From IMG/VR virus record IMGVR_UViG_3300019889_000027, positions 1 through 32,419 of that record: 32,419 nucleotides of DNA, one strand, 5' to 3'. Source of the DNA: a virus. The notes under the pieces are model-generated. The model saw only the letters and a program-made list of their open reading frames with translations. It made no database searches and was not told where the DNA came from. The position numbers were made by a program, and so were the translations under genes. Of this stretch, positions 22,308 to 32,419 are shown one piece after another. Positions within the stretch are counted from its first letter, which is position 1. Every line of letters starts with the position of its first letter.

Positions 22308-23357
22308 GTGACAGAAGAGCTCTATTACTACACCTGGTTTACCGATCGCTGGCAATTGTCGCAGGCGCGCGTCGAGATGAACCTCGCCGAGCGTGGCCTG
22401 TACCGCGAGCTGCTCGACTATTTCTACACGAACGGCTCGCTGCCGGCCGACGAGGCTACCCTGGCTCGCATTGTGGGCGCGCAGGCGGCCGAGTTTCGTC
22501 GCGCCTGGAGGAAAGTATCCGGCTGGTTCGCTCCGGACGACACAGGGCGCCTTGTTTCAGCCGCCGGCACCGACCTGCGCAACGGTCTGCTGAGGGAATT
22601 GAATCAGCGGCGGGCTGCCAGCCAACGCGGCGGCGAGGTGACCCGAGATCGCCATCGGGGAGGGCCGGGGGAGGGCCGGGCGGCTAGGCCGGGAGACAGG
22701 CCGAGACCAGGGCCGGGAGGGGGGCCGGCGGCCTGGCCGATACCGGGGCCGGACAGGGAGCCGAGGGCAGGGCCGGAAGCTAGGCCGGTGGGTGGGCCGG
22801 CAGGGGGGCCAACTGAAGACTTAAGACTTAAGACTAAGAAAGAAAACCTTACGGCGTCTGCCGACGCCGCCGGTTTTCGCGGGCGCGCGGGGTTAACTGC
22901 GCTCCAAAAGCATACCGCAAACGAGCAGGGGGCGGCGGCGGCAAACCCGCCCGAAGAAATCGCCACGAAAACGCCTGAAAACACAACGATTCTGCCCGAG
23001 ATCCGCGAGCTCGTCGATGCCCTGCATGCCCGGCATATCGAGCCCGGAAACCCGGCGAAAGCCTACGGCGAAGCCCAGGCTGCGTTTGCCCAGAGCGGCG
23101 ACACCTGGCCGGCGTTTTCTGCGATGATTGGCCGGCATTTCCTCGAGTGGAGCGAGTTCTGGCAGCGCAAACGAGAGCGCGATTCGGAAGCGTTTGTGCC
23201 CCAGCTCTGGCGCTGGTTTCACTCGGCCGAGTACATCGGCAAGCCGTCGGACGAGGCGCAGCACAGTCGCAAGCGGGCCTCGAAAACTGAATTTCTCGAT
23301 CGCATCGCCAAGGGCGAGATCGACGTGAACGGCCGCCCGATCGAGGTCCACCGGTGA
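22308..23357 (+). CDS. DUF1376 (YdaU-type) replication protein with internal repeat array
   Basis: 349 residues, GTG start. The N-terminal DUF1376 domain (YYYTWFTDRWQLSQARVEMNLAERGLYRELLDYFYTNGSLPADEATLARIVGA) is a winged-helix-like module of phage replication organisers. A Pro/Gly linker of four-residue periodicity (about 118-168) is encoded by 12-bp iterons. The C-terminal domain (about 225-349, ELVDALHARHIEPGNPAKAYGEAQAAFAQSGDTWPAFSAMIGRHFLEWSEFWQRKRE) is helical and probably recruits helicase or loader. Such a build resembles lambda O: initiator with its own origin inside. Confidence 0.8.
   Translation: MTEELYYYTWFTDRWQLSQARVEMNLAERGLYRELLDYFYTNGSLPADEATLARIVGAQAAEFRRAWRKVSGWFAPDDTGRLVSAAGTDLRNGLLRELNQRRAASQRGGEVTRDRHRGGPGEGRAARPGDRPRPGPGGGPAAWPIPGPDREPRAGPEARPVGGPAGGPTEDLRLKTKKENLTASADAAGFRGRAGLTALQKHTANEQGAAAANPPEEIATKTPENTTILPEIRELVDALHARHIEPGNPAKAYGEAQAAFAQSGDTWPAFSAMIGRHFLEWSEFWQRKRERDSEAFVPQLWRWFHSAEYIGKPSDEAQHSRKRASKTEFLDRIAKGEIDVNGRPIEVHR
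22663..22818. repeat. 12-bp GGCCGG iterons inside the DUF1376 gene (putative origin)
   Basis: GGCCG-type cores start at 22663, 22674, then 22687, 22699, 22711, 22723, 22735, 22747, 22759, 22771, 22783, 22795 and 22807: eleven consecutive units in exact 12-bp register plus two slightly shifted. Consensus GGCCGG followed by six variable, purine-rich bases. One unit (22759) reads AGCCG. The array codes for the Pro/Gly linker, so a protein-level repeat is the alternative explanation. Confidence 0.75.
22816..22850. repeat. AT-rich 7-bp repeats next to iterons (candidate unwinding element)
   Basis: AAGACTT, AAGACTT, AAGACTA run from 22816 to 22836, then AGAAAGAAAACC. In a gene otherwise well above 60% GC, this abrupt AT-rich block beside an iteron array resembles a DNA unwinding element. 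Confidence 0.5.
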
Positions 23358-25298: not shown

Positions 25299-25552
25299 AA
25301 TCGGTCCTCCCGGCTCGTTGACCGAATCCGAATATACACATGTTATAACACGAAACCTGCCGTTTTGCTCAGAAATTTGCAGGGAAAGTGCGCTTACCAA
25401 TTAGGAAGATTCTTGTGACCGTGTCTTTAGGCGGCGGCCACGGCCCGCAGCGCCGCGCTGGACTAGTGTTCAGGAATCACTCCGAAAGTAGTCCACCTCA
25501 GTAGTCCGCTCTCAAATCGGACAACTGAAACTCGCGAAGGGAAAGGTTCACT

Positions 25553-25720
25553 ATGGCGCTCATACTTTTGATTCTTGTGATCCTGCTGCTCGGCGGCGGC
25601 GGTGGTTACTATGGCTACAACCAGTGGGGCTACGGTGGCGGGATCGGTGGAGGCCTCGGGCTCATCCTCCTGATCGTGCTGCTTGCTTATTTGCTCGGCG
25701 TGTTCCCGCACCGCTTATAG
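25553..25720 (+). CDS. Small two-segment membrane peptide, DUF3309-like
   Basis: 55 residues: MALILLILVILLLGGGGGYYG, a Tyr/Gly turn (YNQWGYGGGIGGG), then LGLILLIVLLAYLLGVF. This matches the DUF3309 pattern of small membrane peptides of unknown role, common in Proteobacteria and Acidobacteria. RBS GGGAAAGG upstream. Upstream (25401-25552) there is only a short direct repeat AGTAGTCC. Immediately followed by an iteron cluster. Confidence 0.65.
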   Translation: MALILLILVILLLGGGGGYYGYNQWGYGGGIGGGLGLILLIVLLAYLLGVFPHRL

Positions 25721-25730
25721 CGTGCGCGCT

Positions 25731-25766
25731 GGGCTCCCACCTGGGCGCCTGGCTGGACGTCCAGGG
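25731..25766. repeat. 12-bp iterons, remote cluster (3 units)
   Basis: GGGCTCCC at 25731, GGGCGCCT at 25743 and GGACGTCC at 25755 are in exact 12-bp register and share the GGRCGYCC core of the par-locus clusters 5 kb to the right. They lie between the DUF3309-like gene and the leftward 26048 gene, outside any accepted coding region. Confidence 0.6.
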
Positions 25767-25793: not shown

Positions 25794-26048
25794 TCACTTG
25801 CCCGCCTCCCGCTCCGCATCGCCCTGGATGGCGTCGAGAATATCAAGAGCCATTTGCAGCCCGTCAAATCGACCGTTAAGCAGTGACTTGTCACGCTCTG
25901 ATTCACCGCCATACAGCCACCTATACTGTTGCTGCTTTTCCGTTATGCGCTCAACCGCCGTCGCCAGCTTCCGCTTGACGGTGGCAATCTCTGCCATAAA
26001 CGAGGCAGTCTGATTGCTTCTTTGCATCGCTTTTTCTGCTTCGGTCAC
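25794..26048 (-). CDS. Hypothetical accessory protein
   Basis: 84 residues, GTG start with GGGGAG upstream. Helical and charged (EKAMQRSNQTASFMAEIATVKRKLATAVERITEKQQQYRWLYGGESERDKSLLNG...). Ends AEREAGK. Likely co-transcribed with the 26276 gene upstream. No family recognised. Confidence 0.5.
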   Translation of the reverse strand: MTEAEKAMQRSNQTASFMAEIATVKRKLATAVERITEKQQQYRWLYGGESERDKSLLNGRFDGLQMALDILDAIQGDAEREAGK

Positions 26049-29798: not shown

Positions 29799-30443
29799 CT
29801 ACCCGGGCGGCCTCGTTGGGGGCGCTGTGCCGCCTAACGTCGCCAGTATCATGCTTGCCATTTGCCTTTCTTCGCGGCTGGCATTGGGATCCGCGAGCAC
29901 GGCTCGGTAGTCGTCCAGATTCAGGGCGACATCGTAGTAGTGGTTAATCGGTGGAAGCGCGCGCCAGGCCGCGGAGTAATTCGTGGCTCGCCGCCTTTCG
30001 CGGGTCTCCGGCCGCCGCGGCCTGGTTTCGCCAGAGGGCGACGTAAGTCGTTCTTGGTAATTCTTCCTATTAAGGCGACCGGACATTTTTGTCCCCTCGG
30101 AGCGGACTGGGCCGGCGCCTGGCGGGTAGGTCTCGACCAGGACGAAATGGTCGCCGTGGCCGGTCCGGGCGACCCGGCGAAGGATACCGAGCGCAAGGAG
30201 CTGGGCCATCCACCGCCGGACGGTGCGCAGATCCACCCCGTAATACTCGGCCGCGCGCTTGTAGCGGAAGAACGTGTGCCCCTTCAGCCACTGCATCCGC
30301 TTGGCGTAAATCAGCATGCGGTAGACCGCTCCCGGAAGCACTTTGCGCCAGGCGTCGAGTATTCCCTTCCCTAGCGGTACGAACGGTACTTGCGGCGCAA
30401 AATTAAGGGCTTGCGCGCCGCCGTTTTCTGATAAGATTTCCAT
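29799..30443 (-). CDS. Winged-helix plasmid replication initiator-like protein
   Basis: 214 residues. PGAVYRMLIYAKRMQWLKGHTFFRYKRAAEYYGVDLRTVRRWMAQLLALGILRRVARTG is a helix-turn-helix/wing module like that in plasmid and phage replication initiators. A basic linker and a C-terminal helix (LDDYRAVLADPNASREERQMASMIL) follow. It heads a leftward operon, divergent from parA, with its leader opposite a strong plus-strand terminator. Probably the plasmid-mode Rep; a transcription factor is the alternative. 29640-29798 holds no gene I can support. Confidence 0.6.
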   Translation of the reverse strand: MEILSENGGAQALNFAPQVPFVPLGKGILDAWRKVLPGAVYRMLIYAKRMQWLKGHTFFRYKRAAEYYGVDLRTVRRWMAQLLALGILRRVARTGHGDHFVLVETYPPGAGPVRSEGTKMSGRLNRKNYQERLTSPSGETRPRRPETRERRRATNYSAAWRALPPINHYYDVALNLDDYRAVLADPNASREERQMASMILATLGGTAPPTRPPG

Positions 30444-30532
30444 GTTGGGTTTGGCCGCCTTTCACCGGCCGACTGCATACACTTCGGGCGCTGCTCTGGT
30501 AGGCCGAGCCCGGGTGGACAGAACGAATTAAG

Positions 30533-30566
30533 CGGCTTAGGTGTTATCAGCACCTAGGCCGTTTTT
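30533..30566 (+). terminator. Strong rho-independent terminator, plus strand
   Basis: CGGC-T-TAGGTG pairs with CACCTA-G-GCCG around TTATCAG, followed by TTTTTAATTT. It lies opposite the Rep leader, 167 bases upstream of parA. No plus-strand gene precedes it, so it may end a short RNA antisense to the Rep leader. Confidence 0.65.
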
Positions 30567-30677: not shown

Positions 30678-30713
30678 AGGCTCCCAAGTGGGCGTCTAAC
30701 GTGACGCCTTGCT
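30678..30713. repeat. 12-bp iterons upstream of parA (3 units)
   Basis: AGGCTCCC at 30678, GGGCGTCT at 30690 and TGACGCCT at 30702, in 12-bp register, match the GGRCGYCC core (6 to 7 of 8 each). They end about 20 bases before the parA ATG, an ideal place for autoregulation. Confidence 0.6.
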
Positions 30714-30733
30714 AATCAAAAACGGGAGCTCAA

Positions 30734-31450
30734 ATGATTGTGGTTGTAGGGGGGATAAAGGGTGGCAGCGGCAAGACTACCGCGGCAACAAACCTCGCCG
30801 TGATGCGCGCCACCAGCGGAGTGGACCTGTTGCTGGTCGACGCCGACGGTGATCAGGAGACAGCTTACGACTTCACCCAGCAGCGCAGCGAGCGCATGGA
30901 TGGCGACGCCGGCTATACGACGATCAAACTCGACGGGGCGGCGGTCCGGACGCAGGTCTTGCGCCTCGCCGACAAATACGAGGACGTGATCATCGACACC
31001 GGCGGCCGGGACAGCACCAGCCAGCGAGCGGCTCTGGGCATCGCCGACCTTCTCCTGGTACCCTTCGTGCCCAGGTCCTTCGATATCTGGACACTGGAAA
31101 AGGTCGCCCAACTCGTCGGCGAAATGCGGCAAGCCAATCTCAAGCTCAAGGCGTGGACGTTCCTGAACCGGGCGGATCCGCGCGGGCAAGAAAACGACCT
31201 GGCTGCCGAGGCGCTTAAGGATGCGCCAGGCCTGGAATTCATCAACGTGTCGGTAGGCACTCGCAAGGCGTTCGGCAACGCCGCGGCCGAGGGCCTGGCT
31301 GTCCACGAGCTCAAGAATCCGGACCCGAAAGCGGTCGAGGAAATATCGGCTTTGTATAGTCATATTTATGGCGTATCCTGGACGTCCGGCGTGACGTCCA
31401 AGGGGGCGTCCAGTCAGGCGTCCACAGGGACACCCAAGGGGGCATTGTAA
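30734..31450 (+). CDS. parA: ParA-family partition ATPase
   Basis: 238 residues, RBS GGGAG. Deviant Walker A KGGSGKTT (about 9-16), LLLVDADGDQETA (about 34-46), and DVIIDTGGRDS (Walker B, about 85-95) define ParA/MinD. There is no N-terminal HTH, so it is the small type that works with a small DNA-binding partner rather than a ParB of the large type. The last 23 residues (from about 216) have four-residue periodicity and coincide with iterons. The downstream RHH gene is the likely adaptor. Confidence 0.9.
   Translation: MIVVVGGIKGGSGKTTAATNLAVMRATSGVDLLLVDADGDQETAYDFTQQRSERMDGDAGYTTIKLDGAAVRTQVLRLADKYEDVIIDTGGRDSTSQRAALGIADLLLVPFVPRSFDIWTLEKVAQLVGEMRQANLKLKAWTFLNRADPRGQENDLAAEALKDAPGLEFINVSVGTRKAFGNAAAEGLAVHELKNPDPKAVEEISALYSHIYGVSWTSGVTSKGASSQASTGTPKGAL
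31380..31439. repeat. 12-bp iterons in the 3' end of parA (5 units)
   Basis: GGACGTCC, TGACGTCC, GGGCGTCC, AGGCGTCC and GGACACCC start at 31380, 31392, 31404, 31416 and 31428, exactly 12 bp apart. They encode the C-terminal TSG-TSK-ASS-AST-TPK repeats of ParA. Confidence 0.75.
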
Positions 31451-31452
31451 AG

Positions 31453-31779
31453 ATGGCACTCACAAGAAAACCAACCAGAACGGCAGACCCGGCGGATATC
31501 AACCGGCTGATTCGGAAAGGTAGGAGCAAGCCGAGCCGAGAGCAAAGGCGCGGGATGCTGAAGATCAGTCTGCGCGTCCCGTTGAGCTGGGTGGATCGAA
31601 TCGATGCGCTTGTCAAAGTGCACGAACCGCCGCCGGTCGATCCCTTGTCGCTCACCAAACCGTTGCCGAAGTACACCCGGCATGACTGGCTGCTCGATGC
31701 GCTTAGGGATAAGCTCGAACGAGAGAAGAGTCAGGGACGGACAGAGTTGAGTCCGACGCCGACGGCCGAGGGGGAATGA
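31453..31779 (+). CDS. RHH-type partition adaptor (ParB-like role)
   Basis: 108 residues, starting 2 bases after the parA stop. The basic N-terminus (RKPTRTADPADINRLIRKGRSKPSREQRR) precedes an RHH-like core: strand GMLKISLRVPLSWVDRIDALVK, a long Pro-rich loop, then helix TRHDWLLDALRDKLERE. Small RHH proteins encoded after small ParAs bind centromere iterons and stimulate the ATPase through a basic N-terminus. The match to that plan is good, but the loop is unusually long. Confidence 0.65.
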   Translation: MALTRKPTRTADPADINRLIRKGRSKPSREQRRGMLKISLRVPLSWVDRIDALVKVHEPPPVDPLSLTKPLPKYTRHDWLLDALRDKLEREKSQGRTELSPTPTAEGE

Positions 31780-32243
31780 TGTTGCGTGTCCCGGACGCCC
31801 AAGTGGACGCCCACGCGGGCGTCCCAATAGAAGTCATCGTCTACGCTCTCTATGCGGGCAGGGAAGCGCCCCAACCGTTTTATATCGGAAAATCACGGCA
31901 ACCAGCAGCACGTCTCAATCAGCATCGCCGTCGATTTGGTGCCGATACGGAAATGAAAGTGTTGCAGCGCCGCTTTGAAGGAGAGAGCGTCGACCAAGCT
32001 GAAGCGCGTTGGATCGCGCACTTTATCAAGAACGGCCATTCCGTACGTAACCTGGCCAAGCTTCCCAGATCGGAGGCACGCACACGACTCACCCTGGATA
32101 TACCGATCGCTCTCCATAGACAGTTGAAATCGAAGAGTGGCCGCAAAGGAGTCGATATTCGTGAAGTTGTGCAATCGTTGATCGAAAAGTGGGTCAGCGA
32201 CCTGGACGCCCACCGTGACGCCCGAAAGGACTCCACTCCATGA
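31776..32243 (+). CDS. GIY-YIG nuclease domain fused to an RHH-like domain
   Basis: 155 residues from the ATG at 31776 (overlap with the previous stop; a second ATG follows at 31779). GIY-YIG elements are VIVYALY (Tyr23), PFYIGKS (Tyr36), RLNQH (Arg46), AEARWI (Glu76) and RNL (Asn92). From about 103, TRLTLDIPIALHRQLKSKSGRKGVDIREVVQSLIEKWV reads as a ribbon-helix-helix. The RHH could direct the nuclease to iterons that lie in its own gene. A third gene of this kind in a par operon is unusual. Confidence 0.75.
   Translation: MMLRVPDAQVDAHAGVPIEVIVYALYAGREAPQPFYIGKSRQPAARLNQHRRRFGADTEMKVLQRRFEGESVDQAEARWIAHFIKNGHSVRNLAKLPRSEARTRLTLDIPIALHRQLKSKSGRKGVDIREVVQSLIEKWVSDLDAHRDARKDSTP
31793..31828. 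repeat. 12-bp iterons in the 5' end of the GIY-YIG gene (3 units)
   Basis: GGACGCCC at 31793, GGACGCCC at 31805 and GGGCGTCC at 31817, in exact 12-bp register and all fitting GGRCGYCC. They encode residues about 6-17 (PDAQ-VDAH-AGVP). Confidence 0.75.
32204..32239. repeat. 12-bp iterons in the 3' end of the GIY-YIG gene (3 units)
   Basis: GGACGCCC at 32204, TGACGCCC at 32216 and the weaker GGACTCCA at 32228 keep the 12-bp register. They encode the last residues (about 143-155) and end just before the next ATG. Confidence 0.65.
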
Positions 32244-32419
32244 GAGGGGCAGGGAACTCAACCGTCCAACTAGCGTTTCGGATCTGGGTAGACGGCAAGA
32301 TGGTGGTCAACGAGAGCCACGCTATCCCCGATCCGGAACTCGAACAGTTCCTGAACAGTTTGGGCGAAAAGCACGTCCGGCTGGTGGCGGACAAAAACTT
32401 CATGTCGGAGATCGAGTTT
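32240..32419 (+). CDS. Hypothetical protein, 3' partial
   Basis: ATG at 32240 overlaps the GIY-YIG stop (ATGA); open to the window edge for 60 residues (FRIWVDGKMVVNESHAIPDPELEQFLNSLGEKHVRLVADKNFMSEIEF). Fourth gene of the par operon. No family recognised from this fragment. Confidence 0.55.
   Translation, partial: MRGAGNSTVQLAFRIWVDGKMVVNESHAIPDPELEQFLNSLGEKHVRLVADKNFMSEIEF

Follow-up and report, generated by a model that had tools for sequence, protein, structure and literature searches.

In the parCAB partition system of the Myxococcus plasmid pMF1, iterons that are bound by ParB in gel shifts flank the par genes and are also dispersed, some of them lying inside two open reading frames (ORFs) (Sun et al. 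2011; PMC3235114). Other dispersed cases listed in that study are N15, RK2, and pSM19035 (PMC3235114). In the delta/omega/parS system of pSM19035, omega binds iterons at three sites that overlap the promoters of several genes and that together make up the centromere (PMC5016525, PMC4498918). Here, we describe a par locus at the end of a 32,419-base IMG/VR virus record, the whole of which was analyzed and is referred to below as the window. The locus resembles pSM19035 in combining a ribbon-helix-helix (RHH) protein with short iterons at separate sites, which in pSM19035 are operators and centromere at once; the pSM19035 iterons, however, are 7-bp heptads, 7 to 10 per site, in the promoter regions of separately transcribed genes, whereas those of the window step by 12 bp. 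In our assessment, the repeats of the window are very likely parS iterons, serving as operators and centromere in a type Ib ParA/RHH partition module carried by a phage-plasmid.

RESULTS

The par region of the window

The record begins with contractile-tail genes (DUF3383 and baseplate J). At its other end, four ORFs follow one another on the plus strand: parA (30734..31450), for a small type Ib ParA ATPase of 238 aa; rhh (31453..31779), directly 3′ of parA, for a putative RHH centromere-binding protein in the ParB role; a third operon gene (31776..32243), for a protein with a GIY-YIG nuclease-like domain and a C-terminal RHH domain of the Arc/ParG-like kind; and an ORF (32240..32419) that is cut by the end of the record. 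Upstream and divergent, on the minus strand, lies a rep-like gene (29799..30443) with HTH matches and a weak similarity to replication initiation proteins (phrog_270, 5e-4). Judged by this similarity, it is a probable plasmid replication gene, which would fit plasmid-style replication adjoining par. A strong terminator-like hairpin of 16 pairs (30530-30564), followed by T-rich DNA, separates the rep-like gene from the par operon. The virus is probably a phage-plasmid, maintained in its host as a plasmid, a mode of life that we infer because the record is a fragment.

The ParA protein has its P-loop at the extreme N-terminus (KGGSGKTT from residue 9) and is without an N-terminal DNA-binding domain. 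It matches Pfam AAA_31 (3e-12), as well as CbiA and MipZ, and ParA-like proteins in PHROG (6e-36); its best solved relative is ParF (4dzz). Its small size, the RHH gene adjoining parA, and the iterated sites upstream of the operon place the module in type Ib. The RHH protein aligns with the RHH partner genes of about 85 loci, and by alignment count the loop between its helix 1 and helix 2 is long, at 27 residues. A structure model built with 33 relatives (mean pLDDT 79) likewise has helices at 44-56 and 76-93 with a long loop between them; it matches solved structures weakly (Z about 4), among them the RHH domains of NikR and ParD, and Foldseek returned no significant match for it. Pfam RHH_1 was matched in 3 of the 33 relatives and not in the window protein. 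Scans of viral-contig proteins with the RHH protein and with the GIY-YIG protein found no relatives; when viral contigs were searched with the RHH alignment, a single relative emerged, from a parA locus that our set already contained, and the sole match in a scan of genome contigs was an antitoxin-like RHH protein adjoining a PIN gene.

The product of the third gene is harder to classify. The GIY/YIG pair and the conserved Arg, Glu, and Asn are present when it is aligned to GodonK gp2, but the Pfam match of the domain (E 0.007, 17.1 bits) is under the cutoff of 22.6, and a structure model made without an alignment is unreliable (pLDDT 42.7). The tail matches a PHROG Arc-like repressor (4e-4), and its ParG-type matches are all weak (Pfam ParG, 13.6 bits, below the cutoff of 21.4; 1p94, E 0.12). 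We did not find the gene in the par loci or in the full records of the relatives that we searched, and no full-length relative was found in phage and plasmid collections or in protein scans of IMG/VR and GTDB contigs. Our guess is that it is an accessory nuclease under iteron control; it is also possible that it is an iteron-guided nuclease.

Iteron arrays in the window

An earlier sequence-only reading of the window had reported four clusters of GGRCGYCC-type units in strict 12-bp register within the par operon, and all four were confirmed, with 3, 5, 3, and 3 units. On the plus strand, cluster 1 (30678..30709; 8-bp cores starting at 30678, 30690, and 30702) is noncoding and lies just upstream of parA; no sigma-70-like promoter was found adjoining it. 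Cluster 2 (31380..31439; cores at 31380, 31392, 31404, 31416, and 31428) occupies the 3′ end of parA, upstream of rhh. Cluster 3 (31793..31824; cores at 31793, 31805, and 31817) lies within the 5′ end of the GIY-YIG ORF, and cluster 4 (32204..32235; cores at 32204, 32216, and 32228) lies at its 3′ end, directly before the gene that begins at 32240. The 12-bp register thus stood, but the consensus was too strict: of the 14 par-region units, only 6 match GGRCGYCC exactly, and 11 match the hexamer GRCGYC.

In the whole window, 7 of the 8 exact GRCGYC pairs spaced 12 bp apart fall in the par region. Such pairs were not equally frequent in shuffled DNA: among 2,000 dinucleotide shuffles of the par region, 1,986 held none and 14 held one, and 100 shuffles of the whole window gave 0 to 2. 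Runs of at least three units, four of which are found in the par region, did not occur in any of the 2,000 shuffles. A matrix built from the par units added an array that the earlier reading had missed: cluster 5 (25731..25762, plus strand), three units at 12 bp in noncoding DNA about 5 kb from the par genes, between the convergent ends of a plus-strand ORF that stops at about 25720 and a minus-strand ORF at 25794-26048. Its score of 25.0 exceeds those of clusters 1 and 4 and compares with a shuffle maximum of 17.1; at other periods from 9 to 15 bp its score was at most 11.7. A simple autocorrelation scan found no arrays at a strict threshold, which was too strict for units this degenerate. 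The 12-bp arrays are not a product of chance. The motif alone is not specific, since at least 120 stretches in IMG/VR carry three GRCGYCC units at 12 bp and, among the matches listed, none has a parA or rhh relative.

Two other features of the window were noted in passing. The plus-strand ORF just before cluster 5 (25544-25720, about 58 aa) is small, glycine-rich, and hydrophobic and is without a PHROG match. At 22657-22810, inside a DUF1376 gene, GC-rich tandem repeats with periods of 12, 24, and 36 bp encode a Pro/Gly/Arg-rich stretch; their sequence is unrelated to the par iterons.

Overlap of the arrays with coding sequence

The clusters were said to stay in frame and to appear as four-residue repeats in the proteins. 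This holds within each gene, but the phase differs between genes: parA reads the iteron unit from codon phase 1, giving xTSx peptides, and the GIY-YIG gene reads it from phase 2, giving xDAx. Cluster 2 encodes a C-terminal tail of ParA that is absent from all aligned relatives, and clusters 3 and 4 occupy opposite ends of the third gene, beyond the part that aligns as the GIY-YIG/RHH core. There is no in-frame ATG, GTG, or TTG start just 3′ of cluster 3, so this cluster is probably translated. Since the coding arrays occupy nonconserved ends of genes and two different frames are used to read them, it is the DNA, and not the protein, that is conserved. The importance that had been attached to 12 bp as four codons was not borne out: noncoding clusters 1 and 5 also step by 12 bp and the norm of the family is 11 bp, so the step is not a codon effect; as described below, 12 versus 11 bp follows the length of the RHH loop.

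Iterons in the parA-rhh family

Relatives of ParA were drawn from phages, plasmids, and IMG/VR. About 90 have the parA-rhh arrangement, among them KS14-type phages and plasmids of Methylobacterium, Deinococcus, and Hymenobacter, and in nearly all of them a small RHH gene directly follows parA. The window ParA is 66% identical to that of its nearest relative (L150) and 62% identical to that of a Methylobacterium locus (L137). Short iterons occur at many of these loci 5′ of parA, at the parA-rhh junction, from where they often extend back into the end of the parA gene, and 3′ of rhh. When each of the 64 palindromic hexamers was scored for enrichment beside parA and rhh, with correction for 64 cores, 40 of 86 distinct loci had an enriched core, and the pooled spacings peaked at 11, 22, and 33 bp; self-overlapping TATATA/ATATAT cores add a 2-bp peak and side bands to these pooled values. 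The cores of the family include GATATC (KS14 and Methylobacterium), AACGTT (Chondrocystis and Deinococcus), and TATATA/ATATAT types in AT-rich genomes, for which the test is less sharp.

The final 60 bases of parA contain four sites in two plasmids of Methylobacterium (L139 and L140), and the Methylobacterium arrays in this coding end have an 11-bp step, which cannot repeat in frame. The dispersal of the iterons across gene junctions into coding DNA had been thought unusual. Because the arrays of relatives also run into the 3′ end of parA, iterons that enter this end are better seen as a family trait, and spill into coding sequence as ordinary; pMF1, with its ParB-bound iterons inside two ORFs (PMC3235114), speaks against the claim as well.

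No other locus was found to carry the GRCGYC core, which prevents a pairing of motif with reader inside a close family; in the three loci with the nearest ParA proteins (L150-L152), sites are few and a period could not be called. Outside par, no dispersed arrays were found in KS14 or in a second genome scanned (G006). A third (G008) has two more array-like places 0.6 to 1.4 kb past rhh, and a fourth (G007) was scanned for dispersed sites without a good core to choose. One Deinococcus locus (L237, p380k) has a truncated parA, an intact long-loop rhh, and no detectable iterons; it has the look of a partition module in decay.

RHH loop length and iteron spacing

The loop was counted in the RHH alignment as the residues between helix 1 and helix 2. 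All seven callable loci with a loop of at least 16 residues have a 12-bp period, and 53 of 58 with a loop of at most 14 residues have an 11-bp period (Fisher test for loop versus period, 1e-6); the five remaining short-loop loci gave weak 12-bp calls. Mean z scores were 2.11 at 11 bp and -0.67 at 12 bp for short loops and -0.19 and 2.41, respectively, for long loops. Eight plasmid loci were then preselected by RHH sequence alone. Seven of these fit 12 bp better than any other period; in the eighth, parA is truncated and there is no array. The mean z scores of the preselected loci were -0.05 at 11 bp and 3.35 at 12 bp. Several of the preselected loci are close kin of loci already in the set, and all loci are related. 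One phage RHH protein (L179) is an odd case for the rule, with a long loop of 20 residues and no clear iteron period.

AACGTT cores are 12 bp apart in five Deinococcus plasmids, where the loop is long, and 11 bp apart in Chondrocystis, where it is short, despite RHH strands that are nearly alike (NVQLR/RVQLR); it is therefore as if the strand set the sequence of the site and the loop set the spacing, separately. On the ParA tree, the 12-bp state needs three changes, and the window falls in a 10-row clade (starred) that is otherwise short-loop. By the approximately unbiased test, a single 12-bp clade was not rejected with L179 included (p-AU 0.28), whereas p-AU was 0.011 without it. The correlation of loop and spacing is strong, but its independent origins number at most about two. 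These comparisons suggest that the shape of the RHH protein sets the spacing of its sites. In a literature search, we found nothing on KS14 partition or on RHH spacing.

DISCUSSION

The reading of the repeats as the iteron system of the ParA/RHH module, with the RHH protein encoded at 31453 as its likely reader, is supported by the comparative evidence. In the mechanism that we propose, the near-palindromic GRCGYC cores would be occupied by adjacent dimers of this protein, one dimer for every 12 bp. When bound close to gene starts, these dimers would repress the par operon, and the RHH-bound arrays would make up the complex that is transported over the nucleoid by ParA, by which the phage-plasmid would be kept in dividing cells. 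The arrays are placed at gene junctions, with one at a distant site; at tight junctions, the ORFs on either side simply run through the arrays, and the result is dispensable protein tails. The step of 12 bp, not the usual 11, goes with the longer RHH loop and probably reflects the spacing of dimers on DNA and not codons. RHH binding, repression of the operon, recruitment of ParA, and partition activity are all predicted by analogy with described systems; the putative reading of the sites by the RHH protein draws further support from the comparison of loop and spacing across loci.

A second reader is conceivable, although unlikely. The 31453 protein could act on clusters 1 and 2 and the RHH tail of the GIY-YIG protein on clusters 3 and 4, or on all of them; clusters 3 and 4 do flank the GIY-YIG gene, and the tail is RHH-like, nearest to the ParG and Arc types. 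On the other hand, the core and the period are common to all clusters, and the strand residues of the two proteins differ (KISLR versus RLTLD); DNA binding by the tail is putative. We consider it quite unlikely that the arrays are transcriptional operators only, through which the RHH protein would repress every operon gene, with no centromere role. Every par-region cluster is indeed near a gene start (parA, rhh, the GIY-YIG gene, or the gene at 32240), but an operator at cluster 5, where two convergent ORFs end, would have no obvious gene to control, and known type Ib systems use one site for both jobs (PMC5016525, PMC3235114).

We also entertain, as an improbable idea, that the RHH tail of the third protein reads its own iterons, or those of a rival replicon, that the nuclease cuts competing plasmids with matching centromeres, and that the arrays at the ends of the gene regulate it. 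If this were true, the third gene would be a centromere-guided incompatibility weapon.

Iterons are frequent at plasmid origins, and the weak replication-initiation match of the gene at 29799-30443, just upstream, might point to replication iterons read by its product as an initiator. This is very improbable: it is parA, rhh, and the third gene, not the rep gene, that the arrays accompany, the KS14 arrays were found in the par region only, and the period tracks the RHH protein. It is hardly credible that the repeats serve at the protein level, the DNA pattern being a by-product of four-residue repeats at the termini of ParA and of the GIY-YIG protein. Four codons do span 12 bp, and the units are translated into xTSx and xDAx peptides, but the two frames encode unrelated peptides, two clusters are noncoding, the ParA tail is without counterpart in relatives, and the 11-bp steps of relatives shift the frame.

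Operator/centromere iterons thus remain the preferred reading, and the comparison offers a testable rule: site spacing (11 or 12 bp) follows the RHH loop, and site sequence follows the strand. If the rule holds, centromere sites and plasmid incompatibility groups would be predictable from ParB sequence. Centromere iterons in coding DNA appear common in this broad phage and plasmid partition family, where gene annotation alone hides them.

Comparison with known systems

Within the family, the phages KS14 and FLC5/FLC10 (Burkholderia phage KS14 and its relatives) are like the window in having a ParA that is about 41 to 44% identical, followed by rhh, and iterons upstream of parA and at the parA-rhh junction; they differ in their GATATC core, 11-bp step, and arrays found in the par region only, and no GIY-YIG gene was seen in them. 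The Methylobacterium/Methylorubrum plasmids pMRAD08, pM44602, pMNOD05, and pB146-3 are closer by ParA (58 to 62% identical) and have three iteron blocks, of which the middle one enters the 3′ end of parA, but they too have the GATATC core and the 11-bp step, together with a short RHH loop, and no GIY-YIG gene was seen. Plasmids of Deinococcus and of Hymenobacter/Dyadobacter/Spirosoma have parA-rhh, a long RHH loop, and 12-bp iterons, as does the window; their cores are AACGTT or of the ACAACT type, and their arrays lie upstream, at the junction, and downstream, with none within a third gene.

Outside the family, pMF1 shares with the window a type Ib ParA with a small ParB, near-palindromic iterons (of a GATGTC type), an extra third gene, and iterons that also lie inside ORFs and away from par, as clusters 2 to 4 and cluster 5 do here. 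It differs in its ParA, which is 32% identical, in its iteron arrays, which in our analysis step by 8 bp and not 12, and in its extra gene, parC, which precedes parA and is not described as a nuclease. The steps of RHH-type centromeres thus span at least 7, 8, 11, and 12 bp, with pMF1 at 8 and the parA-rhh family at 11 or 12. Given the precedents of pSM19035 and pMF1 (PMC5016525, PMC4498918, PMC3235114), the layout of the window is best regarded as a variant of something already known.
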